Source: Sterolibacteriaceae bacterium (GTDB lineage: Bacteria > Pseudomonadota > Gammaproteobacteria > Burkholderiales > Rhodocyclaceae). From it: DNA of 64,000 bases. A program made the position numbers and the translations under genes. The stretch spans positions 1 through 64,000 of the forward strand of contig JANYCD010000073.1 of assembly GCA_025360425.1 (NCBI GenBank). The letters are read 5' to 3'. Below the pieces are notes generated by a model. The model did no database searches and had not been told where the DNA came from. It saw only the letters and a program-made list of their open reading frames with translations. Of this stretch, positions 27,311 to 45,733 are shown piece by piece; within the stretch, counting starts at the first letter, position 1, and each line of letters begins with the position of its first letter.

Positions 27311-28750
27311 ATGTACCTAGAACATTTCGGACTCACCGAACCGCCCTTCCGCATCACGCCGCATACCGACTTCTTTTTCGCCGGTGCGAATCGTGGCGCA
27401 ACGCTTGACGCCCTGATCTACGCAGTCACCCATGACGAAGGCATCGTCAAGATCAGTGGCGAAGTGGGCAGTGGCAAGACCATGTTGTGCCGGGTACTGA
27501 TCGAACGGCTGCCGGCCCAGGTGGCGATCGTCTACCTGTCAAACCCTTCACTGTCTCGCGCCGACATCCTCTATGCCATCGCCGACGAACTCCGCATAGA
27601 ACTACCGGAAAACGCACGCGCCAGTGCCGTGTTGCGCTCGCTACAGGACCACCTCATTCGACTTTACGGCGAAGGGCGGCGGGTCGTGGTGCTGATTGAC
27701 GAAGCCCACGCCATGCCGACCGAAACGCTCGAAGAAATCAGGCTGTTGTCCAATCTGGAGTCCAATCACAGCAAATTGCTGCAGCTTGTGCTGTTCGGCC
27801 AGCCTGAACTGAACGACATCCTGGCCCGCCCCGACATGCGCCAACTGAAAGAGCGCATCACCCACAATTTCCCCCTTGAGCCACTGGTAAGAGACGACAT
27901 TGCCGAATATATGGAGTTTCGCATGCGCGCTGCGGGCTACCGTGGCCCCAATGTCTTCAGCCCGTCTGCAACCAAAATAGTCGCCCAGGCATCGCAAGGT
28001 CTCACCCGGCGTATCAACATGCTGGCCGACAAGGCGCTGCTGGCGGCATTCTCCGAAAATACGCACCTGATCACGGCCAAACATGTCCGCGCCGCTGTCA
28101 AGGATTGCGACTTCAGCAAAGCCACACGCATTGCCAAGCCTTTGCCGTTGCGAATGGCAGCGCTGCTTGCGATTCTTTTCCTTGCGATTGCCTGGTTGGC
28201 GCTCAGTCGCACATGGCTCCCGGGTACGCTGGAAATATCGCCGAACGTCACGGTGGCAGCACCGGTGCCGATTACCACGTCACCCATGGCGCAATCTGTT
28301 CCACCACAGCCCGCATCACCCACCGCGCCGTCTGCTCCAGCCCTACCCACGCCCGTACCAGAAACCATATTGGCTCAGCCCATGCCGGCACCTGCGCCTT
28401 TGCCACCCACGATTGCGGTAGTTGCGCGAACGAAGTCCGGAGTGGAAACTTATCTCGGCGCTGGCAAAGCCTGGCTTGCCAGCGCAGACAACAATCATTG
28501 GTTCCTCCAGCTTGCGACTGAAGCCAACAATGCCGGAACGGTGGAGGCCTACCTACGGATCGTCGAAAAATCTGGGGTCGACATGTCCAATGTCCGCGTC
28601 TATTTGTCCGATTTGAGCGGAACCATGCGCTACGGCATCACTTATGGCGACTATGCGTCTCGCGCATCAGCTACGGCAGCGGCAAGCAGACTACCGGCGA
28701 AAGTGAAGGCGCGCCACCCTTACCCCAGGCAAGTGTCCAGGCTGCGCTAG
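27311..28750 (+). CDS. ExeA/MshM-like AAA ATPase with C-terminal TM and SPOR-like region
   Basis: MYLEHFGLTEPPFRITPHTDFFF, GEVGSGKTMLCRVLIE, VVVLIDEAHAMPTETLEEIRLLSNLE. Confidence 0.9.
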   Translation: MYLEHFGLTEPPFRITPHTDFFFAGANRGATLDALIYAVTHDEGIVKISGEVGSGKTMLCRVLIERLPAQVAIVYLSNPSLSRADILYAIADELRIELPENARASAVLRSLQDHLIRLYGEGRRVVVLIDEAHAMPTETLEEIRLLSNLESNHSKLLQLVLFGQPELNDILARPDMRQLKERITHNFPLEPLVRDDIAEYMEFRMRAAGYRGPNVFSPSATKIVAQASQGLTRRINMLADKALLAAFSENTHLITAKHVRAAVKDCDFSKATRIAKPLPLRMAALLAILFLAIAWLALSRTWLPGTLEISPNVTVAAPVPITTSPMAQSVPPQPASPTAPSAPALPTPVPETILAQPMPAPAPLPPTIAVVARTKSGVETYLGAGKAWLASADNNHWFLQLATEANNAGTVEAYLRIVEKSGVDMSNVRVYLSDLSGTMRYGITYGDYASRASATAAASRLPAKVKARHPYPRQVSRLR

Positions 28751-28819
28751 CCTGTCGCTCACGCCCATCGCTTGAAATAGGGCCGAAATACACAGCTACT
28801 TCCAATAGAAATCATAGGG

Positions 28820-28847
28820 TTGTATTGCAAAATTGATGTGTTATCAT
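28820..28847 (+). promoter_or_regulatory. Weak sigma-70-like promoter candidate upstream of the secretin gene
   Basis: TTGTAT-N16-TATCAT, 16 nt before ATG at 28864. Confidence 0.3.
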
Positions 28848-28863
28848 CAAATTGCCCTTTTTT

Positions 28864-30681
28864 ATGAACGAGGTAATTCACGTGCGCCTGCTCACTCTTG
28901 TTTTCGCAGCCTCGTTTATTGGCGCATGCAGCAATGCGCCCATCACTCCCCCATCGAATGGACATATCCGCGCCGAAAACATTCCGGACGCCGATACGGC
29001 TTCAATCCCCAAGCCGGTGCAGAGCGACATTTCCCTGCCGAGACCCAAACCCGCCGCCAAAGTCGAGACGTATAGCGTTGTTGTCAGCAACGTGAAGGCG
29101 CAAGACCTGCTGTTCGCCCTGGCGCGCGACGCCAAACTCAATATTGATGTCCACCCGGGTATCAACGGCACGGTCTCGCTGAACGCCATTGACCAAACCC
29201 TGCAACAACTGTTGGCCCGTATCGCCAAGCAAGTGGATATGCGCTGGGAACTGGATGGGCCGAATCTGATCGTGATGCCGGATACGCCTTTCCTGCGCAA
29301 CTACAAGATCGATTACGTCAATCTAGCGCGCGATGTGACCAGTTCTGTCGCCATCAATACCCAGATCGCATCCACCAGTGCCGCAGCAACCACTGGTGGC
29401 AGTGGATCATCCGGCGCCGGCAACAATTCTTCCACTACGGTCACCAGTACAGCCAAGAATAATTTCTGGGGTTCCCTGGAAAAGAACCTCAAGGACATTC
29501 TGCGGGAAACCGACAAGATTCTGCCGGAGGGGTCCAGCGATACCGTGATCGAAAAAAATGACCAGCAATCCACCAGCGGTACAGGAGCAACGTCCAATCG
29601 TGGGGGGGGGCAAGGCAATCTCGCGGGAAGTCCAAACCCTGCCTCGATATCGACGGAAGGGACGACGGTAATCAAGCGGACGACTTTTCGTGAAGCCGCG
29701 TCTGTCATCGTCAATTCCGAAGCCGGTGTGGTGGTGGTACGCGCCACTTCACGGCAGCATGAAAAAGTTCAGGAATATCTTGATCTCGTCATGTCAACCG
29801 CCAAGCGGCAGGTCATGATCGAGGCGACCATTGCCGAAGTTACGCTGAGCGACGGCTATCAACAGGGCATTAATTGGCAAAGCCTGCGCAATCTGCGCAA
29901 AGGGCCTCCGACCGCCGGTTTTTCAGAAATTCAGAATCCGTCGGGGCCGACGCTGACCAGTGGTGGCACACCTTTTCTGCTGAACTATGTCGCACCGGGG
30001 CTGGGCATTTCGGCCACCATTTCCCTGCTGGAGTCTTTTGGCAACGTAAAAGTAATTTCCAGTCCGCGGATCAGCGTCCTCAATAACCAGACCGCATTGC
30101 TCAAGGTCGTCAATAACATTGTCTATTTCACCATCAAATCGGATACCACCAACAGTACGACCGGCCCTTCACAAACCACCGTAACGACGACCCCTCAATC
30201 GGTCGCGGTCGGATTGGTGATGAGTGTTACGCCACAAATCAGTGACACCGACGTGATCCTGCTCAATGTCCGACCCACGATTTCCAGCGTCATCGACTTT
30301 ATTAATGATCCGAATCCCAGCATTCCCTCTGGAATTTCCAATAGGGTTCCGGAAATTCAAACGCGTGAAATGGAGTCGGTGCTGCGCCTGACCAACGGGG
30401 AAATTGCGGTGATGGGCGGACTGATGAAAGACGAGCTAAATCAGGCCACCGATGCGGTACCGGGTCTCTCCAAATTGCCTGTGCTGGGAAATATATTTAC
30501 GCAACGTAACGACAAGCGCACAAAAACCGAATTGGTCATATTTCTGCGGCCGACGGTGATTAAAGATATCAGCATCAATGGTGACTTCCGCGCGCTGCGC
30601 GGACAATTGCCGAACAACGACTTTTTTGCCAACAACCCTGGCCCGCAACAGCAACAAATCGGCGGCGGAGGCAGCAAGTAG
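28864..30681 (+). CDS. mshL: Pilus/type II secretin, MshL-like lipoprotein
   Basis: Lipobox SFIGACSN; secretin core VISSPRISVLNNQTALLKVVNNIVYFTI and GEIAVMGGLMKDE; follows MshM-like ATPase. Confidence 0.9.
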   Translation: MNEVIHVRLLTLVFAASFIGACSNAPITPPSNGHIRAENIPDADTASIPKPVQSDISLPRPKPAAKVETYSVVVSNVKAQDLLFALARDAKLNIDVHPGINGTVSLNAIDQTLQQLLARIAKQVDMRWELDGPNLIVMPDTPFLRNYKIDYVNLARDVTSSVAINTQIASTSAAATTGGSGSSGAGNNSSTTVTSTAKNNFWGSLEKNLKDILRETDKILPEGSSDTVIEKNDQQSTSGTGATSNRGGGQGNLAGSPNPASISTEGTTVIKRTTFREAASVIVNSEAGVVVVRATSRQHEKVQEYLDLVMSTAKRQVMIEATIAEVTLSDGYQQGINWQSLRNLRKGPPTAGFSEIQNPSGPTLTSGGTPFLLNYVAPGLGISATISLLESFGNVKVISSPRISVLNNQTALLKVVNNIVYFTIKSDTTNSTTGPSQTTVTTTPQSVAVGLVMSVTPQISDTDVILLNVRPTISSVIDFINDPNPSIPSGISNRVPEIQTREMESVLRLTNGEIAVMGGLMKDELNQATDAVPGLSKLPVLGNIFTQRNDKRTKTELVIFLRPTVIKDISINGDFRALRGQLPNNDFFANNPGPQQQQIGGGGSK

Positions 30682-32000
30682 TGAGTTTGCTGATGGATGC
30701 GTTGAAGAAGGCGGAACTGGCCAAGCGCCAGTCTCCAAAGGATCCATCTGAACCATCAATCTCGCGCGCTTCCCAAGAACCCCTGGCATTGACACCGTTG
30801 GGGGTCAAACCCGAGCCATTTGGCGGTGAGCAATCAATTCCACCGTCTGTCGTGGAGCCAGTCGGCAATCTCCCTGAATTGCCATCGACGCTCGAATTAC
30901 TCGATCAGGAATTCATGGACGCGGCGCTCGTCTTGGCGCAACGCAAACCCGAGAACACGCAAGAGCTCTCTGCAGGTCGGGTAGGCGCTTTTTCTTCGCC
31001 GCCGATTATCCCTGCCCCAGTTATTGACACGAGCGCGCAACAGCGGGCTGCCGCTGAAACCCGGCGCGAACGCGAGTCTGTGCAAAACCTGTTCGAGGCG
31101 AAGCAGGCACCGGCATCTTCACGCAAGACATTCGCCATCGTTGGCGTGCTTTCCATGTTTGTCGTGGCCGCCATCGGCATCTATTTCTGGTTGCAGTTAC
31201 AACCCAAATCAAGCCTGATGCCGTCTGGTGGCGCCGTGTTGCCAATAACGGCGTCTCCCCACCCCATGATTCCCTCTCCGCCGGTGCCGGTGGCCGAACC
31301 CGTAACGAACATCCCGGCCGTGCCGGCCGCCGCATCCCCGAATGAAGCACAAAGTAGCCAACCACAGCCGGCGCCAGCCCGACTAACAGCGCCGCTACCC
31401 GAGATCCCGATCCGCGTGACCACATCGAAGTTGCAAGTCGACCCGACGGTTGACGCCGCTTTCAATGCCCTGCAAAACGGCGATCTGGGTGCCGCCAAAG
31501 CCGCCTACGAGAAATCGCTGAAGAACGACCCGAAAAATGCCGATACGCTGCATGGCCTCGCTGCGATCCAGCTTCGCCTGGGCAAACCGGAACTGGCGCA
31601 AGACTATTATCTGCGCGCGCTGGAGGCAGACCCCAAGGATGCTCTGGCGCAGGCCAGTCTGATCAGCATGAGCAGCCAAATTGATCCCGTGCAATCAGAA
31701 AGCCGGCTCAAGCTGCTGCTCACCACACAGGCTGACTCGCCGTTCCTGCATTTCTATCTCGGCAATCTCTACGCACGCCAGAATCGCTGGTCCGAAGCTC
31801 AACAGGACTATTTCAAAGCCATGGCGGGCGAACCGGACAATCCGGATTACCTGTTCAATCTTGCGGTCAGTCTGGATCAATTGCACCAGGCCAAACTTGC
31901 CGCGCAGTACTATGCCCAGGCACTGTCCGCAGCCGACAAACGATCTGCCGGTTTTGATAAACAACAGGTTTCCGACCGACTGAAAAAGTTGCAGCCGTAA
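30681..32000 (+). CDS. MshN/GspB-like TPR membrane protein
   Basis: SLLMDALKKAELAKRQ N-terminus, single TM, C-terminal TPRs; GTG start overlaps secretin stop. Confidence 0.85.
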   Translation: MSLLMDALKKAELAKRQSPKDPSEPSISRASQEPLALTPLGVKPEPFGGEQSIPPSVVEPVGNLPELPSTLELLDQEFMDAALVLAQRKPENTQELSAGRVGAFSSPPIIPAPVIDTSAQQRAAAETRRERESVQNLFEAKQAPASSRKTFAIVGVLSMFVVAAIGIYFWLQLQPKSSLMPSGGAVLPITASPHPMIPSPPVPVAEPVTNIPAVPAAASPNEAQSSQPQPAPARLTAPLPEIPIRVTTSKLQVDPTVDAAFNALQNGDLGAAKAAYEKSLKNDPKNADTLHGLAAIQLRLGKPELAQDYYLRALEADPKDALAQASLISMSSQIDPVQSESRLKLLLTTQADSPFLHFYLGNLYARQNRWSEAQQDYFKAMAGEPDNPDYLFNLAVSLDQLHQAKLAAQYYAQALSAADKRSAGFDKQQVSDRLKKLQP

Positions 32001-32046
32001 TCTTTCACTTTCCGGCACGTGCGCAATGCTGGATAATCTTCGGCAC

Positions 32047-33753
32047 ATGAACGCCCCAAATATCAAACGTCGGCCCATTGGACAAGTCCTGATCGCGCAA
32101 GGTGTGATCAGCGAAGACCAATTGCGTATCGCGTTGCTGGAACAGATGAAGGTGAACCAGCCGGTCGGCAAACTGCTGGTTAGCCTCGGTTTCGTTTCAG
32201 AAGCCACGCTGCGCGATGCCTTGGGCGAGTCCCTTGGCAGCAAGTCGGTCGACCTGACCCGTGCAGTAATTGATGCCGGCGCATTGAAAATGGTGCCGCG
32301 CGAACTCGCCAAGCGCCATCGTATCTTGCCGCTCGACTACGACACGACCAACCAAAAACTCACCATCGCCGTTTCCGACCCGAACGATATCATCGCGCTC
32401 GACAAGTTGCGCGCGCTGGTTCCCCATGAGCTCAGGATAGAAACACTGCTGGCCGGCGAAACTGAAATTGCGCGCGCCATCGATCAGTACTACGGTCACG
32501 AACTCTCGATCGACGGCATTCTGCACGAAATCGAGACCGGTGAAATCGACTATCGCTCACTGTCCACGAGCATGGATGAATACAGCCAGCCGGTGGTGAG
32601 GCTGGTGGACGCATTGCTGACCGATGCCGTCAAACGCGAATCATCCGACATTCACTTTGAACCCGAAGCCAGCTTCCTGCGCATCCGTTATCGCATCGAC
32701 GGCATCCTGCGTCAGATCAGGTCATTGCACAAATCCTACTGGGCAGCCATGGCAGTGCGACTGAAGGTGGTTGCCGGGATGAACATTGCCGAGACGCGTG
32801 CCCCGCAGGATGGTCGCATCTCCCTGGTCATCAGCGGCCGGCCGGTGGATTTCCGGGTCTCGGCGCAACCGACAATACATGGCGAGAACATCGTCTTGCG
32901 CATCCTTGACCGACAAAAAAGCATCGCCACGCTGGACAAGTTGGGGCTCGATGACTTTCAGCTGGACCTGCTCAAGCTGATGATTGCCCGACCCGAAGGC
33001 ATCATCATGGTGACCGGCCCAACCGGCAGCGGCAAAACAACAACGCTCTATTCGGTACTAAGTCATGTCAATGACGAGGGGATCAACATCATGACCCTCG
33101 AAGACCCGGTCGAATACCCGATGGCAATGATTCGGCAAACCTCGGTGTCTGAGACGGCAAAGCTGGATTTTGCCAGCGGCATCCGCTCCATGATGCGTCA
33201 GGATCCGGACGTGATCCTGGTTGGTGAAATCCGCGACGCGGATACCGCTGAAATGGCGTTCCGTGCCGCGATGACCGGGCATCAGGTTTTCTCGACCCTG
33301 CACACCAACTCGGCAATCGGCGCCATCCCGCGCCTACAGGACATTGGCGTTCTGCCGGACATCATGGCCGGCAATATCATTGGCATCATCGCCCAGCGTC
33401 TGGTTCGCCGCCTGTGCACTCACTGCCGCAAGCCCCACCCGGCTGAGGCCCACGAACGCCACCTGCTCAAGCTGGAGGACCAGCAATCTCCACCCATCCT
33501 CTACCGCGCCACCGGGTGCGACCAATGCGATTTTCAAGGCTACCGTGGCCGGCTTACCATCATGGAACTGCTGCGGCTTGACGGCGACCTCGACGAACTG
33601 ATTGCGCGTCGTGCCACCGCCCGCGAAATTCGCAATGCCGCAATCGCCAAGGGCTTTCGCCCGCTGGCGGAGGATGGTCTGAGGCGAGTGCTCGACGGAT
33701 CGACATCGCTCGAAGAGATCGCCCGGGTCATCGACCTTACGGAGCGGATGTAA
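32047..33753 (+). CDS. mshE: Type IV pilus assembly ATPase, MshE/PilB/GspE family
   Basis: [15 protein letters not shown]; Asp/His boxes; MshEN-like N-terminus RRPIGQVLIAQGVISEDQLRIALLEQ. Confidence 0.93.
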   Translation: MNAPNIKRRPIGQVLIAQGVISEDQLRIALLEQMKVNQPVGKLLVSLGFVSEATLRDALGESLGSKSVDLTRAVIDAGALKMVPRELAKRHRILPLDYDTTNQKLTIAVSDPNDIIALDKLRALVPHELRIETLLAGETEIARAIDQYYGHELSIDGILHEIETGEIDYRSLSTSMDEYSQPVVRLVDALLTDAVKRESSDIHFEPEASFLRIRYRIDGILRQIRSLHKSYWAAMAVRLKVVAGMNIAETRAPQDGRISLVISGRPVDFRVSAQPTIHGENIVLRILDRQKSIATLDKLGLDDFQLDLLKLMIARPEGIIMVTGPTGSGKTTTLYSVLSHVNDEGINIMTLEDPVEYPMAMIRQTSVSETAKLDFASGIRSMMRQDPDVILVGEIRDADTAEMAFRAAMTGHQVFSTLHTNSAIGAIPRLQDIGVLPDIMAGNIIGIIAQRLVRRLCTHCRKPHPAEAHERHLLKLEDQQSPPILYRATGCDQCDFQGYRGRLTIMELLRLDGDLDELIARRATAREIRNAAIAKGFRPLAEDGLRRVLDGSTSLEEIARVIDLTERM

Positions 33754-33765
33754 ACGACTTTATCC

Positions 33766-34968
33766 ATGGCGCTCTATGCATACAAGGCGATCAATCCATC
33801 GGGGCGCACAGTCCTGGGTCGGCTCGACGCCATCAATCTGGTGGACCTCGAAATGCGCCTCAAGCGCATGGAGCTCGACTTTGTCAATGGCAATACCGTC
33901 AAGGAAAGCAACCTGTTCGGTCAGAGCAAGATCCCGCGCCGGGAGATCATCAATTTCTGCTTTCATCTTGAGCAATTAACCCGGGCCGGTGTACCGATCA
34001 TCGAGGGATTAGCCGACCTGCGCGACAGCCTTGAAACGCCGCGCTTTCGCGAAGTGCTGGCGGGCATGGTGGAGAGCATCGAGGGTGGTAAAACCCTGTC
34101 GCAAGCGATGGACGAGTACCCCAGAGTCTTCGATGAAGTCTTTACCAGCCTGATACGCGCAGGCGAAGAGACCGGAAACCTGTCCGGCGTTTTGAAGAAT
34201 CTGAATGAATCGCTCAGGTGGCAGGATGAATTGGCGGCACAAACCAAGAAGCTGATCATGTATCCGGCATTCATGGGCGTGGTGGTGGTTGGCGTGGTGT
34301 TTTTCATGATGATTTACCTGGTTCCAAAGATGGTGAGCTTCATCAAAAACATGGGGCAACAGATCCCGCTACAGACCAAGATACTGATCGCCACTTCCAA
34401 TTTTTTCGTCAACTACTGGTACATCGTTCTACTGCTGCCGATAGTGATCGCCATCGGGATCAACTTCGCGATTCGCACCAATCCCAAGGCGCATCATCGC
34501 TTTGACGGATTCAAGTTACAGATGCCCATGGTTGGCGAAATCCTGCGCAAGATCATTCTTTCCCGCTTCGCCAGCGTATTCGCCATGATGTACGCCTCGG
34601 GAATTTCGATACTTGACTCGATCAAAACCACCGAGAAGGTGGTCGGCAATTCGATCATCCGCGAAGGACTCGAGCAGGCCGGTCAGTTGATCGCCGATGG
34701 TCTCAACGTGACCGCTGCGTTCGAGCGCGTTGGATTGTTTCCGCCACTGGTTATCCGCATGCTGCGCGTCGGAGAGAACACCGGTGGGCTGGATACCGCT
34801 CTAATGAATGTCAGCTATTTCTACAATCGCGACGTAAAGGAATCCATCGAGCGCGTGCAGGCAATGATTGAACCGATGATGACCATCATCGTCGGCATGA
34901 TTTTGGGCTGGGTGATGCTTGCTGTTCTTGGTCCAATTTACGACACCATTTCAAAAATGAAAATTTGA
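33766..34968 (+). CDS. mshG: Pilus inner-membrane platform protein, GspF/MshG/PilC family
   Basis: FCFHLEQLTRAGVPIIEGLADLRDS; duplicated GspF domains with TMs. Confidence 0.93.
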   Translation: MALYAYKAINPSGRTVLGRLDAINLVDLEMRLKRMELDFVNGNTVKESNLFGQSKIPRREIINFCFHLEQLTRAGVPIIEGLADLRDSLETPRFREVLAGMVESIEGGKTLSQAMDEYPRVFDEVFTSLIRAGEETGNLSGVLKNLNESLRWQDELAAQTKKLIMYPAFMGVVVVGVVFFMMIYLVPKMVSFIKNMGQQIPLQTKILIATSNFFVNYWYIVLLLPIVIAIGINFAIRTNPKAHHRFDGFKLQMPMVGEILRKIILSRFASVFAMMYASGISILDSIKTTEKVVGNSIIREGLEQAGQLIADGLNVTAAFERVGLFPPLVIRMLRVGENTGGLDTALMNVSYFYNRDVKESIERVQAMIEPMMTIIVGMILGWVMLAVLGPIYDTISKMKI

Positions 34969-34978
34969 CGCTCCGAAA

Positions 34979-36541
34979 ATGTCAAAACACCGCGCCCTCT
35001 TCCTTGACGCCAACCACATCACTGCCTATTCGTGGCAGGGCGGAAACCTGCGCGAAGAAGGCACCTTCGACGGTGACGCGCCAGGGCTGGAGAACTTCGT
35101 CGCCTATCTGCGTCTCCAGCGCTCCTCGGTCTTCTACCTGCTCGCCGATGTCGCCGAGGAAGGCTTCCAGATCGAAGACATCCCCTATGTATCGGGTAAC
35201 GACCGCAAGGCTTTGCTGGAGCGCCGTCTTGGTCAATATTTCTATGGCACACCGCTCACTGCGGCAATCTCGCTGGGACGCGGAAAAACCGGGCGGCGCG
35301 ACGAAAAAATGCTGTTTACGGCGCTGACCCGACCGCAGTATTTCGAACCTTGGTTTGCCGCAATGCGGCAGGCAGAGACCCAACTGGCCGGTCTTTTTTC
35401 GGCGCCCATGGTGGTCAATTCATTGTTCAAGACACTGAACAAAAAAGACGGGCCAACCCTGGTACTGACATTGTGCAAAGCCGGTTTGCGGCAGTCTTTT
35501 TTCGAAGGCGATCAGTTGCGGTTCTCGCGTTTGACGCCGCTGGTCACCAGCTCCCTGGAAGAATATTCACTCACCTGCGCAGTCGAGGCCGCAAAAATCT
35601 ATCAATACCTCGTCGGCCAACGCCAGATCGAGCGCGGCAAAAAACTGGAAACCTTGATCCTTGCCCATCCGGCGGAAACCGCCAGTTTTCGCCAGAAGTG
35701 TCGCGATACGGACGAACTCCACTTTGATTACATCGATCTGATCGAGCGCGGATCCAAACTCGGTCTCAAATCCCAGAGTTCAGATTCGCACGCCGACACG
35801 CTGTTGCTGCATTTGTTGCTGCAAAAAACACCCCCCTACCAGTTCGCTCCGACCCCGGAGCGAAAACTCTATCGTCTTTGGCAATGGCGCTTCGGGCTCA
35901 ATGCCGCCGCCGCGCTCATTCTCGTTGTTTGCCTGCTGTTCGCCACCAAAAACTTTTTGCAAACCTACACCATGGGGCAGGAAGTGGAATCGGTCAAACT
36001 CGATGCCGCCCTGACCAAGCAACGCTATGAGGCCATGCTCAAAAAACTTCCGGCCATGCCGGTCAGCGCCGACCAGTTGCGTGCCATGGTGGATCGTTTT
36101 AACACTTTGCAAAAAAATTCTCCGCCCATCACGATGACGCTCAACCAATTGAGTCAGGCACTGAGTATTTCGCCACAGGTAGAGCTGGATCGAATCGACT
36201 GGCTCCCCTCCTCAAACCCGGCCGACTCGGTGAACCCCGATACGGGCGCGGGTGCGAAAACCGCTCCCAATGCCACGCTTGCGAGCGGTAGCGCAAGCTA
36301 TTACGCCATCGTCGAGATCCAGGCACATTTGCCCGCAGCCGTGGCCAACGACAATCGCGCCATTCTTGAAATCGTTGACCGCTTTGTCGACACGCTGAAA
36401 AAAAATCAGGGCATGACCGTCACCATCCTGCACATGCCATTCGACCTGGCGTCGGGCAAAACCATCAAGAGTTCGGCGCAGACAGGGGTCACTCTGGTTG
36501 AACTGCCGAAGTTTTCGTTGCGCTTGGTGCAGGGACTCTGA
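34979..36541 (+). CDS. MshI-like protein: actin-like/GspL-type N-terminal half fused to TM + PilN-like half
   Basis: Position after mshG; cytoplasmic half, single TM (about aa 300-325), coiled PilN-like periplasmic part. Confidence 0.65.
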   Translation: MSKHRALFLDANHITAYSWQGGNLREEGTFDGDAPGLENFVAYLRLQRSSVFYLLADVAEEGFQIEDIPYVSGNDRKALLERRLGQYFYGTPLTAAISLGRGKTGRRDEKMLFTALTRPQYFEPWFAAMRQAETQLAGLFSAPMVVNSLFKTLNKKDGPTLVLTLCKAGLRQSFFEGDQLRFSRLTPLVTSSLEEYSLTCAVEAAKIYQYLVGQRQIERGKKLETLILAHPAETASFRQKCRDTDELHFDYIDLIERGSKLGLKSQSSDSHADTLLLHLLLQKTPPYQFAPTPERKLYRLWQWRFGLNAAAALILVVCLLFATKNFLQTYTMGQEVESVKLDAALTKQRYEAMLKKLPAMPVSADQLRAMVDRFNTLQKNSPPITMTLNQLSQALSISPQVELDRIDWLPSSNPADSVNPDTGAGAKTAPNATLASGSASYYAIVEIQAHLPAAVANDNRAILEIVDRFVDTLKKNQGMTVTILHMPFDLASGKTIKSSAQTGVTLVELPKFSLRLVQGL

Positions 36542-36543
36542 TC

Positions 36544-37158
36544 GTGGCGACATCGCAATCCACCGCCCTGAAACGCTTGCAGTGGAATATTGCCCTATTG
36601 CTTTTCCTTTCCCTGGTGGGCGCCGGTGCCGTGCTGGCTTCGCTCAAATTTCGTGACGTCGCCGACAAATCACTAAAACAAGCAACCGCGATTCAACGCG
36701 AAATCAAGGCCAAGCTGGCCCGCGCCAACGATGAAGAGATCGAGTTACGCGAAAAAATACTGCGTTATAACGCGATGGATAAAAAAGGCATTCTCGGCGA
36801 AGAACATCGCCTGGAGTGGATCGAGCAAATCAAAAAAGTGGAAGAGAAGCATAAGTTGCTCGAAATTCAATACGAGTTGGCGCCGCAAAAGCCACTCGAT
36901 GCGAAAGTCTTGCCGTTAACAGGCGGTGACTTTGAGGTATTGTCGAGTCCCATGAGCCTGGACATGCCGCTACTCCATGAGTTGGACCTGTTGAATTTTC
37001 TGGCTGATCTTAGCAACGAGGTCACCGCCTTTCTGCGGCTGAGAAGCTGTTCCATCGAACGCACTTCGCCGCAAGCCGCAACCAAAGGCGCCATCGCCGT
37101 TGCCCAGCTCAGAGCCCGCTGCCAACTCGACTGGATCACCATTCGGGAGAGGAGATGA
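36544..37158 (+). CDS. MshJ/PilO-like protein
   Basis: Single N-terminal TM, coiled-coil, position in operon. Confidence 0.6.
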   Translation: MATSQSTALKRLQWNIALLLFLSLVGAGAVLASLKFRDVADKSLKQATAIQREIKAKLARANDEEIELREKILRYNAMDKKGILGEEHRLEWIEQIKKVEEKHKLLEIQYELAPQKPLDAKVLPLTGGDFEVLSSPMSLDMPLLHELDLLNFLADLSNEVTAFLRLRSCSIERTSPQAATKGAIAVAQLRARCQLDWITIRERR

Positions 37159-37607
37159 AGATCGCGGCATTCAGGTTTTTCATTCTCTTCCTGACCTGCG
37201 CCACCCCCCTGGCATATGCGGAAGAGCCACTTGGGCGGCTATTCTTCAGCCCGGAGAAACGCGCTGTACTCGAACGGCAACGGCAACTCAACGTTCAGGT
37301 TCAGGAAACACAAACACTGGAAGGCGCCACCATGCATCTTGATGGTGTCATTCAGCGCAGTGGTGGCAAAAAAACCGTATGGATCAACGGCCAACCGCAA
37401 AACGACAATGCAACGCCCCTCGGTGTTGCCGCGAAAATAGCGCCGGGCGACCCCGGGCGCGCCTCCCTGAGCGCCGAGGGCGAATCTCCCGTCAATCTGA
37501 AAGTTGGAGAAACCGTCAATCGCGCCACGCGTGAAAAAGACAATGGCATCGATGGCGGAAAAATTGTCGTCGGCAAGCCCGCCGCGCGCGCCCGGGATGC
37601 CCGCTAG
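37155..37607 (+). CDS. MshK/PilP-like secreted protein
   Basis: Signal peptide, GVIQRSGGKKTVWINGQPQND (MshK/GspB-type motif). Confidence 0.6.
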   Translation: MKIAAFRFFILFLTCATPLAYAEEPLGRLFFSPEKRAVLERQRQLNVQVQETQTLEGATMHLDGVIQRSGGKKTVWINGQPQNDNATPLGVAAKIAPGDPGRASLSAEGESPVNLKVGETVNRATREKDNGIDGGKIVVGKPAARARDAR

Positions 37608-40600
37608 CCGCAGTCATCAGCGCGGTTTCGCGCTGATGATCATGATCGTGTTGCTGGTCATGGGTGCGCTTTACGGCGTAGTCAGTCAGCTCAGCCTGAT
37701 AGGCGCGCGTGCCGGGCGGACGCAGGGAACCCAAGCCTCATTGTTGCAAGCCAAGGAAGCCCTGATCGGTTTTGCTACCGCCTATCGCGACAGCCATCTC
37801 GATCAGGTGTTTGGGTACCTGCCCTGCCCCGACACCACAGGAGATGGCGTGAGCGATGCCTGCGATGTCACGGGAACCACGGTGGTTGGCCTGTTGCCTT
37901 ACCGAACACTTGGCTTGCAGGATCTGCGTGACAGCGAGGGCGTCTGCTTGTGGTATGTCGTCTCGGGGAACTTCAAAGACAACCCCAAAGCTACGCCAAT
38001 GAATTGGGATACCCAAGGCAACATCCTGCTTCAGGATGTCAACGGTACTACCGTGTTTGCGCCCGACGACGCCAATGGCGGAGCCGCAGCGGTCATTGTC
38101 GCGACGGGCCTGCCCATTGCCGGACAAAACCGCACGCCTGCCGCTGCCACTGTTTGCGGCACCGTTCCTACCGAAGTCGCTGCCTATCTTGATGGGGGTT
38201 ATGCCTTTCCGAGCGCAGGCACGGTCACCTTGAGAGCAGGCAGTAGCGGCAGCACCACTAACAACGATCTCATGCTGGCCGTGACGCCGCAGGAAATTTT
38301 TAGCCGCATCATCCCGCGCGTCGATTTCAGAAACGCATCGAGCGCTACCCCGCCGGGACAAATCAACGCCCTGTCGGACAACATCAAATTCAGCATCGAG
38401 AAACAGATTCAAAGCAATCTGGTCGCAGGCACAGCACCATCGGGCATTGCCCTGCCGCGTCAAACCGGTTATTCGCAATTCGCCGGCAAATGGGTTGGTG
38501 ATTTGGCGACCGCGTTGGCGCTCACGAGCACCAGTGACATCAATTATCTCGCCAACTGGCGCAACCAATATCGTTATGCGGTATGCAGCAACCTGAGCAC
38601 GCCCTGCCTCAACATTGCCGGCACCAGTTGTCGCGCGGCGCTGCTATTGGGTGGCACGTCGACGACCGGTGGGCCACGCACCACGGTCCAAAATGTATCC
38701 ACCACTGCGGCCCTGGATGATTTTTTCGAAGCTGGCAAGGGGCGCGAACTGCTCAATAGCAGCAGCATGACCTTCAGCGGCAATACCAGCTATCAATCGC
38801 CGACGGCCAGCACGACAGAGGATACGGCGCTCTGCCTCGTCCCCGGCGCTTTCAAGTCATTCGCCCAGGACATCGCCGAGTTTTCGTCCGGTTTGACCCA
38901 ATCCGTCACTGGCGGTAACGCGCTTGCCAACGTCGACACCAGCGCCAAAACGGTGACTTTTGGCAGTAGCGGCGGCACCGCCGGCGTGGCTTGCGTCTGG
39001 AATGCGAATGCGCTGCCGATGAACACCCTGCTGCGGCTTTACTTTCGCCTCAACTTTGCCGCCAAGGGCAACGGCGTTGCCCTTGCCCTGGCGGATGGCG
39101 CGACCAACCTGGCACCCAACATCGGTGGGCGCACCCAGATCATGTGCGGCGCCTCGGGGAGTGACACCTTGGGTTATTCGGGAATACCTCCGGCCGATGC
39201 CAGCGGAACACCACCGGCAGGCACCACGGTCGGAATCAAGAGTCCAAAGCTTGGCATCGAATTCGACACCCGTTACGACAGCAGCCGCAACGACCCGTAT
39301 ACAGATCACACGGCTTTTCTCTACTGGGGTAACGCCGCCGATAACGTGGCTGGTGGAAGTGGCGCCGATGACAACACCCACTATCTGGGCACCGGCGGCG
39401 CAGCGATCACGGCCGCCACCTGGTCAAGCAGTGTGGCCACGGTGACCACAGCGTCCGTCCATGGCTTCGTTGGCAGCATAGCCATTACTGCCGCCACTTG
39501 GGCAGGGAATGTAGGCACGGTGACCACAGCGTCCGTCCATGGCTTCTCGGTCGACGATGTGGTGCATGTATCCGGCATCACACCAAGCGCCTACAACGGT
39601 ACTTATACGATATTGACTTCCAGTAGCACGCAATTCACCTATACCTTGACTGCGCCGAGCAACCCCGGCAGTCTTACCATCCCCGGTTCGGTCGGCGAAG
39701 TGGTAATCGTATCTGGCATCACTCCGAACGCGTACAACGGCACCTATACGGTAGTGTCTTCAACCAGTACTCAATTCACTTATGCTTTGCCCAGCGATCC
39801 CGGCGGCTCCGCTGCCTCCGGAATGGTTAAACCTGGCTCTGCCGGGCCTGCACCACGTAACCCGAGGATCGCGACAGCACTTGGAAGCACCACAGTTGCC
39901 TCGCCTTGTGGTTTCCCCAGTCCCGCATGTCCCGTTTGGTCACCCATCAGCTTTGGTCTAGTGACCATCAATACGGCGAAGGCACATAATCTGTCATCGG
40001 GTCAGAAAGTGTATGTTTCCGGAATTTCTCCCGCCGGATACAACGGTGTCTTCACGGTTCTTGCCAGTGGTCTCACCGCAACGCGATTCCGCTATTTGCT
40101 CTCGACTAATCCCGGGGGTTATGTTTCCGGTGGCAGCATTCCCAACAAGGAAGCCGAAATATCCGCGCTTAGCTGGTCATCCAACACCGCGCATGCAGGA
40201 ACAGCGCCGGACAATCACGGATTCAGCAGCGGTCAAGTGATCACCATTGCCGGCGTTACCCCCGGCGGTTACAACACCAGCGGATCCGCGACCTACCTCT
40301 CTTCGAAATTTTTTGACTATCCACTGGCGACCGATCCTGCCGGCGGTTTTTCGACCGAAACCCCGGGCGGAATGTCAATTCTCAAAAATTCCACTACGCC
40401 ACCGCATAATTATCTGAAGTACACCAGCATCCCCCCGACAACTTCCATCTACGTCCGCCTCGATATTTCCCGCAGCTACGACAGCGTTCACCACATCGCG
40501 ATACTCAATACCAAGGCCTATATCGGCGACACCTTCGGCACGTTGCCCGATACCTGCACCAGTGCTTCCAGCACTTCCGAGTTTCAGGATTTGAGTCAAG

Positions 40601-40986
40601 ACCTGGCCGTTTTGTGTCCGTTCCGGACCGTCACGCTGCAACAGGACTCGATCCCCATCAGCGCCATCGCAACCCTCTCTGCCGCCACCTGGTCGTTGTC
40701 TACCGTCAGTGTCACCACCGCTGCCGCCCACCGTTTGGTCAACGGCGCAAGCATTACCATTTCTGGTGCCAGCCCTGCCGGCTACAACGGCACGTATACT
40801 GTCGCGGTGACTGGTGCCAATACCTTCACGTACAGTCTGCCCGGCAACCCGGGAAGTTATGTATCTGGCGGCGATATTCAACCGTTATCCACCATTTATC
40901 TCGGATTCACGAATGCCCGCAGCAGCACCAACATTATTGAGAATCAATCCGTGACCATTGATCAATTATTGTTGAGAAGCCAATGA
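37597..40986 (+). CDS. Very large prepilin-like protein (1129 aa from the ATG at 37597) with lectin-like C-terminal domain and YNGTYTV-type repeats; putative pilus tip adhesin
   Basis: Prepilin-like QRGFALMIMIVLLVMGALYGVV (no Glu at +5); GNGVALALAD ... LGIEFDTRYDSSRNDPYTDHTAFLYWG; repeats VSGITPSAYNGTYT. Confidence 0.75.
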   Translation: MPASRSHQRGFALMIMIVLLVMGALYGVVSQLSLIGARAGRTQGTQASLLQAKEALIGFATAYRDSHLDQVFGYLPCPDTTGDGVSDACDVTGTTVVGLLPYRTLGLQDLRDSEGVCLWYVVSGNFKDNPKATPMNWDTQGNILLQDVNGTTVFAPDDANGGAAAVIVATGLPIAGQNRTPAAATVCGTVPTEVAAYLDGGYAFPSAGTVTLRAGSSGSTTNNDLMLAVTPQEIFSRIIPRVDFRNASSATPPGQINALSDNIKFSIEKQIQSNLVAGTAPSGIALPRQTGYSQFAGKWVGDLATALALTSTSDINYLANWRNQYRYAVCSNLSTPCLNIAGTSCRAALLLGGTSTTGGPRTTVQNVSTTAALDDFFEAGKGRELLNSSSMTFSGNTSYQSPTASTTEDTALCLVPGAFKSFAQDIAEFSSGLTQSVTGGNALANVDTSAKTVTFGSSGGTAGVACVWNANALPMNTLLRLYFRLNFAAKGNGVALALADGATNLAPNIGGRTQIMCGASGSDTLGYSGIPPADASGTPPAGTTVGIKSPKLGIEFDTRYDSSRNDPYTDHTAFLYWGNAADNVAGGSGADDNTHYLGTGGAAITAATWSSSVATVTTASVHGFVGSIAITAATWAGNVGTVTTASVHGFSVDDVVHVSGITPSAYNGTYTILTSSSTQFTYTLTAPSNPGSLTIPGSVGEVVIVSGITPNAYNGTYTVVSSTSTQFTYALPSDPGGSAASGMVKPGSAGPAPRNPRIATALGSTTVASPCGFPSPACPVWSPISFGLVTINTAKAHNLSSGQKVYVSGISPAGYNGVFTVLASGLTATRFRYLLSTNPGGYVSGGSIPNKEAEISALSWSSNTAHAGTAPDNHGFSSGQVITIAGVTPGGYNTSGSATYLSSKFFDYPLATDPAGGFSTETPGGMSILKNSTTPPHNYLKYTSIPPTTSIYVRLDISRSYDSVHHIAILNTKAYIGDTFGTLPDTCTSASSTSEFQDLSQDLAVLCPFRTVTLQQDSIPISAIATLSAATWSLSTVSVTTAAAHRLVNGASITISGASPAGYNGTYTVAVTGANTFTYSLPGNPGSYVSGGDIQPLSTIYLGFTNARSSTNIIENQSVTIDQLLLRSQ
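39438..39546 (+). repeat. 31-bp exact direct repeat, 78-bp period, inside the tip-pilin ORF
   Basis: CACGGTGACCACAGCGTCCGTCCATGGCTTC at 39438-39468 and 39516-39546. Confidence 0.95.
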
Positions 40987-41738
40987 GACAAAACGCTTTC
41001 GCGCGCGGCTTCACGCTAACCGAACTTGCGATAGTCCTGATCATCGTCGGGCTATTGCTCGGCAGCCTGTTTGTTCCCCTGGCGACGCAAACCGAGATTC
41101 GCTATCGCTCCGATACCGACAAGGCATTGGTGGATATCCGCGAGGCTTTGCTGGGCTTTGCCATTGCCAATGGGCGCTTGCCCTGCCCGGCGCGGGCAAA
41201 CGCCGTCCCCGGTGATGCGGACGCGGGATTGGAACCCACGCCTATCGTTGCAGCAGGCTGCGCCAATCTGGCCGGGGTGCTGCCCTGGGCCACGCTGGGC
41301 GTCCCCGAAGGCGATCCGTGGGGCAATCGCTATACCTACCGGATCAGCCAGGAGTTCACCCGACAGCCGCCGCAAGTCGGATTCAATGGCGGAGCCACTT
41401 GTCCCGCTCAAACCGCAAACGCAGGTTTTGCGCTGTGTTCCCAGGGCGACATGACGGTGCTCAATACCGGGGGTGGTAGCACCGTTTCGAGTACCGTCCC
41501 TGCCGTTGTGCTATCTCACGGCAAAAATGGCAACGGCGCCTACAACACGCAGGGCAACCAAATGGCGGTTGGCGCCGATGCGGACGAACTCGACAACCAA
41601 CTCACGGGCGGCGGAACCAACACGGCCAATCTAGTGTTCATCAGCAAAACGCCCACCCCCACATTCGACGACATCGTGATCTGGATTTCTCCCAATATTC
41701 TGTTCAACCGCATGGTTTCCGCCGGCAAGCTGCCTTGA
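40983..41738 (+). CDS. Type IV prepilin-like protein
   Basis: RGFTLTELAIVLIIVGLLLG prepilin signal with Glu5; overlaps upstream ORF by 4 bp. Confidence 0.9.
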   Translation: MRQNAFARGFTLTELAIVLIIVGLLLGSLFVPLATQTEIRYRSDTDKALVDIREALLGFAIANGRLPCPARANAVPGDADAGLEPTPIVAAGCANLAGVLPWATLGVPEGDPWGNRYTYRISQEFTRQPPQVGFNGGATCPAQTANAGFALCSQGDMTVLNTGGGSTVSSTVPAVVLSHGKNGNGAYNTQGNQMAVGADADELDNQLTGGGTNTANLVFISKTPTPTFDDIVIWISPNILFNRMVSAGKLP

Positions 41739-41810: not shown

Positions 41811-43094
41811 ATGAAACGTTCCAACTCCGATACTTCGCGCCCCACGTTTGCCGAACGCCTGAGAACCGCCGGCATCGAGCCGACTGACGACGAACAGTTG
41901 CGACTCAACAAGTCGTTGCTGGTCTTCGCCACAGGCATCGTCAGCGTAACCTCGATGGTCTGGCTCAATATCTATTGGGTGCTCGGTCCGCAGTTGTCAT
42001 CCACCTACCCGTTCGCTTTCAATCTGCTGCTGGTGGGCAATCTGTTAATTTATATCAGGAGCGGAAATTTCGAATTTTTCCGCGTCAGCCAGTTGGGGTT
42101 GCTGCTGTTCATACCATTCGCGATGCAATGGAGCATCGGCACCTTCATCGACGCCAGCGGTGTGGTTCTTTGGGGCTTGCTGGCGCCGGTCGGCGCAATT
42201 CTGATGCTCGGCCCGCGCGGATCGCTGGTATGGTTCCTGATCTGGGTCTTTTTCACCGCGCTGTCGGGGCTGGTCGACTACTATTTGATCGGCCTCGCCA
42301 AACCAACGGTGCCGCTGCGCACCAGCGTTGTTTTTTTCGCGCTCAACTTCATGGCGGTATCGAGCATGATTTACATGCTGTTACGCCACTCGATCCTTGA
42401 GCAGCAAAAAATACGGGGCAAACTGGAAGACGCCTACACGATGCTGACGGTGGAACAGGCAAGGTCGGAGCGTCTGTTGCTCAACATCCTGCCAGGTCCG
42501 GTCGCCGAGCGGCTGAAAAACTCGGACCAGACGATTGCCGATGGATTTGCCGATGTGACCGTGATGTTTGCTGACATCGTGAATTTCACCCAGGTGGCCG
42601 AAGGCATGTCGCCGTCCCAAGTATTCGCCATGCTCAACCGGATTTTCTCGGCCTTCGACGAACTGGCCGAGCAGTTCGGTCTCGACAAAATCAAGACCAT
42701 CGGTGATGCTTACATGGTGGCTGGCGGTATTGGCGGCAGTGCTGAGAACTATAGCGCGGCCATTGCCGACATGGCGGTCGCCATGCGCGACCTTCTACGC
42801 AATGATTTCGCGGTGAATTCGTCGCACCTCGAAGTACGGATCGGCATGGGCACGGGGCCGGTAGTGGCCGGCGTGGTCGGCAAGAAAAAGTTTATCTATG
42901 ACTTATGGGGTGACACGGTCAACATTGCCAGCCGCATCACTTCGGAAGGTATACCCAGCATGATCCAGACCGACGTGACGACATTCAAGCGTTTGAACGG
43001 GGATTTCGAATTTGACGAACCCCAGGTCATTTATCTCAAGGGCAAAGGTGAGATGACGGTATATCGGTTGGTTGGCCGCAAGGCGCTGGGGTAG
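41811..43094 (+). CDS. Membrane-bound class III adenylate cyclase
   Basis: Six-TM-like N-terminus; VMFADIVNFTQVAE, IKTIGDAYMVAGG, YDLWGDTVNIASRI (Lys/Asp adenine-specificity residues). Confidence 0.92.
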   Translation: MKRSNSDTSRPTFAERLRTAGIEPTDDEQLRLNKSLLVFATGIVSVTSMVWLNIYWVLGPQLSSTYPFAFNLLLVGNLLIYIRSGNFEFFRVSQLGLLLFIPFAMQWSIGTFIDASGVVLWGLLAPVGAILMLGPRGSLVWFLIWVFFTALSGLVDYYLIGLAKPTVPLRTSVVFFALNFMAVSSMIYMLLRHSILEQQKIRGKLEDAYTMLTVEQARSERLLLNILPGPVAERLKNSDQTIADGFADVTVMFADIVNFTQVAEGMSPSQVFAMLNRIFSAFDELAEQFGLDKIKTIGDAYMVAGGIGGSAENYSAAIADMAVAMRDLLRNDFAVNSSHLEVRIGMGTGPVVAGVVGKKKFIYDLWGDTVNIASRITSEGIPSMIQTDVTTFKRLNGDFEFDEPQVIYLKGKGEMTVYRLVGRKALG

Positions 43095-43107: not shown

Positions 43108-44835
43108 TCACGATTCCGGAGCCAGCCCGAAACAGACGTTTCCCGGACGATTCATCACCAGTTCCAATCGATAACCATACAGTTGCGCGTTTCTGGCCAA
43201 CTGATATAGCCCGATTCCCAAGCCGGTTTCCGACGCAACCGGCCGCTTGCCGATATCTGCCGCAAGATCACCCGGAAGCTCTGCCCCGGTGTCACAAACG
43301 CATATCTTGACCGGAGACAGCGCCACGTCCAGCGTGATACGAATCTCGATATCCGCACAGGCGGCGCGTTTGTTCATGGCGTTCTGCAGCAGATTCTCCA
43401 CGGCAGTTGTAAAAAGTTCGGCGGGCAACTTGGCAGATCCTGCTTCTCCGTGTAACTCAAACAGCACACCTTCGACTGCATAGCGCTCTTCCATCTGGCG
43501 CCACCAATCGGGGGCAATTACCATTTCGCCCCGCTCAAGTTCCGGCTGCCCAAGCTTGTCCATGGTCTGCTGCAGGCGTTGCGAGATTTGTGGCAGTTGC
43601 CGATCCAGCAATCGCCGATACTGGGCGCCCCCTTCCCGCTTGTCGATATCGGCGGCAAAAATGAGCATGTTGAGAGATTGCAGCAGGTTCTTCACGTCAT
43701 GGGTCAGCCGCGCACCGGTTTCGTGGATGGCCTGCACATAGGCCATGTCCTTGAGTTGCTGCTGCTGGTTTTTGGCGCGGTGGAGTTCAGCGAGTAGTTG
43801 CGCCACCAGATTGAAATGCCAGACCAATGCTGGCGGCATGGCTTGTTGCGTATAAAGGGTCAGCACAAGTTTGTCCTGGGAAAACGTCGTCTCGACTCCG
43901 TGGCTATCGCCGAATGTTCCTGTCCTGCCTTCGGTACGCCATACGCCGCCAATGATCCACGACAAACGCGCCACCATTTCGCGGCACGATTGATCCAGAA
44001 AATGGATCGGATCCGGTTCACGTTGCGCCAGTGCGGTGATGACGTGCAACCACTGTTCCAGCGGAAGGCCGACGGAAAGCAGGTAACGCGATGCCATTGC
44101 GCCAAGACCGGAGAATCCCGCACTTGGGTTCCACGCCAAACTTAACAGAATCAGCATCGCGGCCCCCGCGAACACCATGATTAACAAAGCCTCGATGTAG
44201 CCCACGCCCTCCAGCAACATCAGTGCAACGCTGCCCAATACCAGAACCGCCAGCAGCAGAATGACGAACAAGCTGTAGGCAAGGTCGATCGCTTCGGTTG
44301 GGGAATCATTTGTACCATCAGACGGAATCAGCGCCATCGTTACAATCAACAATGGAAAACCGTAGCGCGCCAGGGTGATGAACGGGCCGACACTTTCCTG
44401 CGAGCGGGGAATCATTTGTGGCACGGCGAACACCAACAGCACCGCCATCAAATAAATCAAGGCAAGCAGATAAAACACCTTTGCCATCCGGCTGTGAAAG
44501 AAAAATATCCGCCCACCGATGATCCCGGCCAGTAGCATCAGCCAGAGCGTCATCAGCCACCAGGAGAGGAAAGCGACGGTCAACGCCAGCACTGCGATCA
44601 TGCCGCCAAGTTGGCGGGCGGGAACACGCGCTTCGGCCTGAACAAAAGGTTGCCAGAGCAGAAAGACCCCAAAGTGAGCAACCAGAAAAGTGCGGCCCGT
44701 GAAACCCGTAATTTTCTGCATCAACGTAATGTGGAGCAAGGCCAGCATCACCACCAATAGCACGCGGCGATGATGCTCCATCCAATCCAGCACAACCGAC
44801 TGCTTGGCATTGTCAGACTTGGCTTCAGTATTCAT
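43108..44835 (-). CDS. Membrane sensor histidine kinase
   Basis: Multiple N-terminal TMs; H-box HETGARLTHDVKNLLQSLN; N-box ENLLQNAMNKR; G-box TGLGIGLYQLARNAQLYG. Confidence 0.88.
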   Translation of the reverse strand: MNTEAKSDNAKQSVVLDWMEHHRRVLLVVMLALLHITLMQKITGFTGRTFLVAHFGVFLLWQPFVQAEARVPARQLGGMIAVLALTVAFLSWWLMTLWLMLLAGIIGGRIFFFHSRMAKVFYLLALIYLMAVLLVFAVPQMIPRSQESVGPFITLARYGFPLLIVTMALIPSDGTNDSPTEAIDLAYSLFVILLLAVLVLGSVALMLLEGVGYIEALLIMVFAGAAMLILLSLAWNPSAGFSGLGAMASRYLLSVGLPLEQWLHVITALAQREPDPIHFLDQSCREMVARLSWIIGGVWRTEGRTGTFGDSHGVETTFSQDKLVLTLYTQQAMPPALVWHFNLVAQLLAELHRAKNQQQQLKDMAYVQAIHETGARLTHDVKNLLQSLNMLIFAADIDKREGGAQYRRLLDRQLPQISQRLQQTMDKLGQPELERGEMVIAPDWWRQMEERYAVEGVLFELHGEAGSAKLPAELFTTAVENLLQNAMNKRAACADIEIRITLDVALSPVKICVCDTGAELPGDLAADIGKRPVASETGLGIGLYQLARNAQLYGYRLELVMNRPGNVCFGLAPES

Positions 44836-45025: not shown

Positions 45026-45733
45026 ATGCCTCGTAAACAAGCTGGTTTTACCCTTGTCGAAATCGCCATCGTGCTGGTCATCATCGGCCTGCTGCTCGGT
45101 GGTGTGCTCAAGGGTCAGGAGTTGATCAATAGCGCGAAAATCAAAAACATGATCAATGACATTCGTTCAACATCAACCTTCGTTGCAGGTTACCAGGATC
45201 GCTTTCGTGCTTTTCCCGGTGATCAAAACGCCGCGCAACTCGTCACCAACTTTGGTGCAACGCCGGTGACGCCATTTGGCGGCGGCGCAGCTGTCGCAGC
45301 ATCTGCCGGTGCAGGCGCCAATGGCAACGGCCACCTCGATGGCAACTGGAATGATCTACTGGCAACACCGTCGGAGTCTTTTGTATTTTGGCAGCATGTC
45401 CGGCTGGCAAATCTGGCAGCCGGCGCCACCGACATCAATGATCCTAACTATCTGCCCAGAAATGCCGATGGCGGCCAAATTGGCATTGAAAGCGGCATCA
45501 ACGGCGCCGGAGCTGCCGCCCCTTTCATCCTAGGCATGCGTGGTTCTTACTATGTCTGCATGGACGGCGTACTGGGTCGTTACGCCAAGCAGATCGACAC
45601 CACCATGGATGACGGCAACACCGCAGGGGGTTCCGTTCAGGTTGTCCCAACGGGTTCGGTCAGGGGAGCTGCAGCCTCGGGGACAGCGGCCGTAGTTGAT
45701 GGCTCACAGTACATCGTCTGTGCGGGCTTCTGA
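45026..45733 (+). CDS. Type IV prepilin (candidate major pilin)
   Basis: KQAGFTLVEIAIVLVIIGLLLGGVLKGQELI; monocistronic with own promoter, RBS AAAGGAGAG and terminator. Confidence 0.9.
   Translation: MPRKQAGFTLVEIAIVLVIIGLLLGGVLKGQELINSAKIKNMINDIRSTSTFVAGYQDRFRAFPGDQNAAQLVTNFGATPVTPFGGGAAVAASAGAGANGNGHLDGNWNDLLATPSESFVFWQHVRLANLAAGATDINDPNYLPRNADGGQIGIESGINGAGAAAPFILGMRGSYYVCMDGVLGRYAKQIDTTMDDGNTAGGSVQVVPTGSVRGAAASGTAAVVDGSQYIVCAGF

Follow-up and report, generated by a model that had tools for sequence, protein, structure and literature searches.

A 64,000-nucleotide stretch of a Sterolibacteriaceae bacterium genome (contig JANYCD010000073.1 of assembly GCA_025360425.1, positions 1 to 64,000; hereafter the window) contains an operon for a mannose-sensitive hemagglutinin (MSHA)-type pilus. 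One gene of this operon, which we call the lectin pilin, probably encodes the minor pilin that caps or initiates the filament and presents a metal-dependent lectin head distally for binding. The open reading frame (ORF), from 37597 (ATG) to 40986 on the + strand, encodes 1129 amino acids (aa) and is free of internal stops. Its first 11 bases (37597-37607) are shared with the end of mshK, and its stop codon and the ATG of the following prepilin gene share the sequence ATGA (40983-40986); this arrangement suggests translational coupling within the operon. An earlier sequence-only reading of the window had interpreted this ORF as a giant Glu5-less pilin with a lectin-like head and as a candidate tip adhesin of an MSHA-like pilus, binding a glycan or surface. 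The pilin type, the MSHA context and the lectin fold were borne out; tip location is probable by analogy with the Glu5-less K subunits of other type 4 filaments, and glycan or surface binding is possible. What that reading missed is that inserted repeats lie behind the large size of the protein.

Pilin features and the MSHA operon

The ORF had been described as a protein of >1100 aa with a prepilin-like start and Ile at mature position +5, and this description was accurate. The N-terminus, MPASRSHQRG followed by FALMIMIVLLVMGALYGVV, has Phe at +1 and Ile at +5. The leader is of the prepilin kind (QRG preceding FALMIMIVLLVMG, with a hydrophobic helix at residues 6-66), and Gly10 is conserved in at least 90% of orthologues. 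Glu at +5, a criterion for the pilin superfamily, is replaced by Ile5. No Glu or Asp occurs among the first 8 mature residues in 70/70 orthologues with a readable N-terminus. The adjacent pilin, pilin2, carries Glu5 in 72 of 73 proteins, and the single exception looks like a regular-expression offset. These results indicate that the pairing of a Glu5-less pilin with a Glu5 partner is conserved across the family and is not peculiar to a single genome.

Invariant or nearly invariant residues of the globular core are G98, P101, L105, D112, W119, Y120, N136, W137, D138, D224, R179 and C187. The pilin-core profile also matched the neighboring pilin2 genes, indicating that the lectin pilin and the downstream pilin are paralogous. 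Judged from these alignments, the core is the conserved portion of the family.

The sequence-only reading had placed the gene in an MSHA-like context, and profile searches assign the surrounding operon to the MSHA pilus system. MshL scored 271.5 bits against the NCBIfam model TIGR02519 (cut-off, 250.2). The cyclic di-GMP (c-di-GMP) motif of MshE, NF053729, scored 56.1 bits (cut-off, 38), and the MshEN/c-di-GMP domain PF05157 in the same operon scored 58.3 bits (cut-off, 23.1); the other Msh names were assigned from gene order and synteny. When loci were fetched with their flanks, the gene order M-L-N-E-G-I-J-K-lectin pilin-pilin2 was nearly constant, and the operon was conserved in nearly all of them. 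Co-occurrence of MshL in relatives was uninformative because the family model also matches other secretins. A motif scan of the whole window showed no prepilins beyond the lectin pilin, pilin2 and the pilin at 45026. Retraction is possible, as the same genome has a gene for a retraction ATPase of the PilT family at another place.

The lectin-like head

The lectin-like segments GNGVALALAD, LGYSGIP and LGIEFDTRYDSSRNDPYTDHTAFLYWG, together with the C-terminal STIYLGFTNARSSTNIIENQSVTIDQLLL, are present in the ORF, and the sequence-only reading had likened them to strands of an L-type-lectin/ConA-like sandwich. The structural evidence agreed. An AlphaFold2 model of the lectin pilin, built on a 43-row alignment, had a mean predicted local distance difference test score (pLDDT) of 76.7 and a predicted template modeling score of 0.69, and it contained the ConA-like sandwich whose absence would have spoken against that reading. 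When the model was compared with the Protein Data Bank (PDB) by Foldseek, legume lectins came top (3ipv, prob 0.94), and the legume-lectin domain 7elv of Methanocaldococcus was matched with prob 1.00 and a root-mean-square deviation of 3.1. The Foldseek E-values were modest because the lectin fold is interrupted. The repeat-free orthologue of Azospira oryzae (707 aa) was modeled with pLDDT 83.0, and its 50 best Foldseek rows were all L-type lectins (50/50; E down to 5.2e-11, prob 1.00).

Searching the PDB by sequence with the whole lectin pilin gave only meaningless matches, and the head was therefore profiled from repeat-free orthologues. The profile built from six such heads had four PDB matches, 2fmd, 1dbn, 1gnz and 9c4i, which were legume lectins only (best E 0.02). 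The Pfam family Lectin_legB had no match in the window's protein itself; the orthologue L076 exceeded its cut-off (32.6 versus 26.3 bits). The lectin hidden Markov model (HMM) aligned on both sides of the inserted repeats, with the split at model positions 127/133. The models and profiles thus describe the C-terminal head as an L-type (legume) lectin fold. Heads of a second subtype, type B, were assigned by the shared alignment and the metal motif. In the PDB this second head type gave mostly spurious thioredoxin matches, caused by a Cys-rich loop, and a single weak legume-lectin match, to 7elv.

The metal-ligand motif ExD..D..H was kept in 33/33 heads. In the lectin pilin of the window, E555, D557, D561, D566 and H571 lie at offsets 0, 2, 6, 11 and 16, a spacing identical to that of E, D, N, D and H in the legume lectin 2fmd, with D561 in place of N. 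In legume lectins these ligands hold Mn and Ca. Close type-A heads also contain a conserved DDNxH-like motif after the YWG strand (39367-39381, residues 591-595), which might form an additional metal site.

Inserted repeats and family distribution

The large size of the protein is due to repeat modules inserted in the lectin loops and not to the lectin itself: about 400 of the 1129 residues belong to the inserted repeat region. The repeat HMM had six matches, four of them full length, and the repeats of insertion 1 occupy residues 604-628 (partial), 630-697, 698-742 (partial), 779-846 and 855-921. PF16190 (E1_FCCH) matched the window's protein below its cut-off of 29.5 (E=2.7e-5, 24.6 bits) and the orthologue L071 above it (57.9 bits). 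In addition, the modeled repeats matched the FCCH domain of human E1 (6dc6) with a Foldseek prob of 1.00. On this basis we assign the repeats as E1_FCCH-like, homologous to PF16190.

Insertions occur at several places in the family: near lectin-model position 60 in L031 and L034; at about 130 in the lectin pilin of the window, L031-L034, L071 and L072; at about 160 in L054, L060, L061 and L067; and at about 185-215 in the lectin pilin of the window, L071, L065 and L068. At the site of insertion 2, the repeat is absent in L031-L034 and present in L071. The repeats of the window's protein matched virion families of the PHROG database (phrog_9998, E 1e-25; others weaker), and the corresponding genes of Klebsiella and Pantoea phages sit in regions of structural genes. 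The position-160 group, which consists of sister clades, carries a different repeat that matched PHROG head-decoration and tail-fibre families with E down to 4e-68; for L067 the match was to phrog_2647 head decoration (E 3e-67). The gammaproteobacterial members L127-L132 and L135-L137 (about 890-1256 aa) have a third repeat type (..DFTDWGVAAGDVVRDLTDGSIGTVT..GDTYQI) within the pilin core, so that the site of expansion differs from that of the betaproteobacterial heads. Searches of Pfam and PHROGs with this third type matched nothing.

The distribution of the three repeat types on the pilin-core tree takes a minimum of 5, 3 and 3 changes; the well-supported sister pairs L063/L065 and L071/L080 differ in repeat presence. 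These results indicate that large size is recurrent and has several origins. The repeats showed no simple pattern of amplification within a gene, as only 5 of 29 had their best match in the same gene.

Among related genomes, 82 of 121 had a homologue of the lectin pilin, as did 85 of 381 in a class-wide set of near-complete genomes, and the operon slot was almost always identical. Named hosts include Azospira oryzae, Sulfurisoma sediminicola, Sterolibacterium, Rhodocyclus and Gallionella. The same slot is occupied by core-only, headless orthologues of 360-460 aa, and there are gammaproteobacterial members that have no lectin. A plasmid search with the pilin core gave no match. One type-B lectin pilin was found in the identical operon slot of a Desulfobulbaceae metagenome-assembled genome (L082, UBA11700), which could reflect horizontal transfer or mis-binning. 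Homologues of the head domain also occurred outside the pilin family (G190:C203, G140:C16, G380:C7 and G417:C1; for example 283-aa ORFs and a 4593-aa ORF), suggesting that the lectin module moves between proteins.

The features of the locus are listed in the table. Genes for a nucleotidyl-cyclase-like protein (41811-43094) and, on the opposite strand, a histidine-kinase-like protein (43108-44835) adjoin the pilins, and homologues of both recur beside many other MSHA loci; from their position, a surface-sensing output of the pilus is possible. Elsewhere in the same genome, a second MshL-like secretin (G000:C32, 121302) lies near a PilB/GspE-like ATPase. The homologues of mshG in L052 and of mshI in L092 are each split over two ORFs and are possible pseudogenes or assembly errors.

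Table. Features of the lectin pilin and its locus, in window coordinates
Feature	Position	Strand	Basis
Prepilin leader of class III (MPASRSHQRG), with prepilin peptidase predicted to cut after Gly10	37597..37626	+	Sequence; Gly10 nearly invariant in 43 orthologues
Mature N-terminal helix, residues 11-66, Ile replaces Glu at +5	37627..37794	+	AlphaFold2 (AF2) helix 6-66; 70/70 orthologues non-acidic here
Globular pilin core, residues ~67-415	37795..38841	+	Conserved residues; profile also matches pilin2 genes; pLDDT mostly 85-97
Predicted L-type lectin head part 1, residues ~420-600	38854..39396	+	Foldseek legume lectins; PDB profile matches; metal motif E555-x-D557...D566..H571
Putative metal-binding loop EFDTRYDSSRNDPYTDH, residues 555-571	39259..39309	+	Sequence; 2fmd alignment; invariant E555, D557, D566, H571
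Insertion 1 in lectin loop, residues ~601-940, E1_FCCH-like repeats	39397..40416	+	Repeat HMM; lectin HMM split; PHROG virion families; Foldseek 6dc6
Predicted L-type lectin head middle strands, residues ~941-1022	40417..40662	+	Lectin HMM second half 939-1125; AF2 strands 950-977, 1015-1022
Insertion 2 in another loop of the lectin, residues ~1023-1095, with a single complete E1_FCCH-like repeat at 1027-1092	40663..40881	+	Repeat HMM 88 bits; PF16190 E=2.7e-5, below cut-off
Last predicted lectin strands YLGFTNARSS...QSVTIDQLLL, residues ~1096-1129	40882..40983	+	Invariant G1103, T1105, Q1117; AF2 strands 1099-1108, 1117-1128
Partner prepilin pilin2 (GFTLTELAIVLII, GFTLTE), canonical Glu5	40983..41738	+	TIGR02532 above cut-off; Glu5 72/73; next to the lectin pilin at almost every locus
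Likely major pilin, MshA-like (GFTLVEIAIVLVI), canonical	45026..45733	+	PF07963 above cut-off; syntenic in many loci
MSHA machinery: MshM 27311, MshL 28852, MshN 30681, MshE 32026, MshG 33766, MshI 34979, MshJ 36544, MshK 37155	27311..37607	+	

Proposed role, alternatives and known systems

In the mechanism that we propose, prepilin peptidase would cleave the leader after Gly10. Ile5 would be unable to neutralize the N-terminus of an overlying subunit, so that the lectin pilin could only be the topmost subunit and would be assembled first; its probable place is therefore the extreme tip of the MSHA-type pilus. The Glu5 partner (40983-41738) would come next below, followed by the major pilin (45026-45733). 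Extension driven by MshE and gated by c-di-GMP would present the metal-dependent head distally; there the head may bind a glycan or another surface polymer, and retraction would pull on the bond between head and surface. The inserted repeats may enlarge and diversify the exposed face, and the tip is likely to be fast-changing and surface-binding.

Several points weigh against this mechanism. Many family members have no lectin at all, and lectin adhesion is therefore not a universal role of the family. For a pilin it is unusual that so large a head has to go through the secretin. The repeat regions were partly modeled with low confidence (pLDDT <50 at 596-625, 666-710, 748-785 and 915-941). In legume lectins the Asp of loop A, which precedes Gly, contacts the sugar; this residue is Asn in the window's protein, and an Asp is found at this position in just 4 of 21 type-A heads and in 0 of 12 type-B heads, of which one was unread. 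Because the loop-A Asp is absent, it is uncertain whether the head binds a glycan. The fold, the family, the operon and the residue features come from sequence and computation; leader cleavage, placement at the tip, binding and the function of the repeats are our inferences.

The headless core-only orthologues in the same slot and the lack of conservation of the loop-A Asp are also what an assembly-priming minor pilin could explain, in which nucleation is the essential function and the head is passive, or a metal-stabilized sandwich that binds no sugar, without specific adhesion. Such a role has a precedent in other type 4 filaments, which are initiated by tip complexes of Glu5-less minor pilins (PMC10191384). 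We nevertheless consider it rather unlikely, since metal ligands that are invariant in every head would not be expected of a mere leftover, and the two lectin subtypes and the recurrent gain of repeats point to an exposed, selected surface. The same repeat gain could instead have been driven mainly by escape from pilus-specific phages and not by new substrates. The matches of the repeats to phage virion families (phrog_9998 for the window's protein and phrog_2647 for L067), matches that lie among structural genes of phages, and the number of changes on the tree are consistent with such a phage-shaped surface. However, small beta modules of this kind are also found in bacterial proteins, so that a phage origin of the insertions is not established, and we regard this explanation as distinctly improbable.

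Finally, the absence of Glu5 and the great size are atypical for a pilin and could indicate an N-terminally anchored inner-membrane lectin or a secreted one that is in the operon by chance. The conserved leader with Gly at -1, the conserved core that is homologous to the adjacent canonical pilin, and the strict synteny and coupling with that pilin make this very hard to accept. A cap pilin with a distally presented lectin head is the reading that we prefer. A wider generalization is more doubtful, and we offer it only tentatively: beta- and gammaproteobacterial MSHA pili may be capped by a single Glu5-less modular pilin that serves as tip adhesin, whose loops repeatedly capture beta-repeat modules shared with phage virions, such that pilus tip and phage surface draw on one pool of attachment and decoration modules.

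The MSHA pilus is among the least characterized bacterial type 4 filaments, and a review omitted it from its component table as too poorly characterized (PMC10191384). In the literature searched, which included few subscription papers, this betaproteobacterial MSHA subunit was not described. The present analysis names a candidate for the cap and tip adhesin together with its partner pilin. Both are conserved across dozens of genera, with the cultured species Azospira oryzae and Sulfurisoma sediminicola among the hosts, and the identity of the MSHA tip thereby becomes directly testable. The single polypeptide joins loss of Glu5 and a lectin module, which elsewhere are on separate subunits, and the at least three styles of repeat-driven lengthening suggest strong diversifying pressure on the tip.

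Identity with MshQ was ruled out. DUF6701, which we take to be the domain carried by MshQ, is absent from the lectin pilin, and a separate 1042-aa DUF6701 ORF lies away from the operon (G000:C75). MshQ is a large MSHA-associated protein of unknown function (PMC9815625), and the lectin pilin resembles it in size and association. PilY1/PilC of type IVa pili is a large modular tip protein that presents adhesive domains (PMC10191384), but it is not a pilin, whereas the lectin pilin has a prepilin helix; homology to PilY1 was ruled out, as the protein had no Pfam PilY1 match. Pilins of the GspK/PilK (PilX) class lack Glu5, as does the lectin pilin, and cap the filament tip complex (PMC9934059; PMC10191384). 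The sequence-only reading had drawn on this class, and its view of a Glu5-less minor pilin stands. Homology to GspK does not: no Pfam or NCBIfam match to GspK/T2SSK was obtained at E up to 1; the relative of the core is the adjacent pilin, and the protein carries a lectin.

With legume and other L-type lectins (2fmd, 3zvx, 7elv, YwfG and SraP), the head shares the predicted fold and the metal-ligand spacing; it differs from them in its unconserved loop-A Asp, its repeat-interrupted loops and its fusion to a pilin. In function, the closest precedent is PilC of Streptococcus sanguinis, a large modular minor pilin with a C-terminal ConA-like lectin that binds sialylated and sulfated glycans and has been proposed to lie at the tip (PMC9934059). 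Like the lectin pilin, PilC is a large minor pilin with a C-terminal lectin and is encoded beside other minor pilins. It was not among the Foldseek top 50 of the Azospira orthologue. PilC keeps Glu5, has a short pilin moiety and an immunoglobulin-like module, and is part of the type 4 pilus of a monoderm (PMC9934059). In contrast, the lectin pilin combines Glu5 loss and a lectin in one chain, has legume lectins as its nearest folds and repeat-filled loops, and belongs to an MSHA system. Its modeled structure is that of a modular pilin, in which an L-type lectin is grafted on a pilin core.

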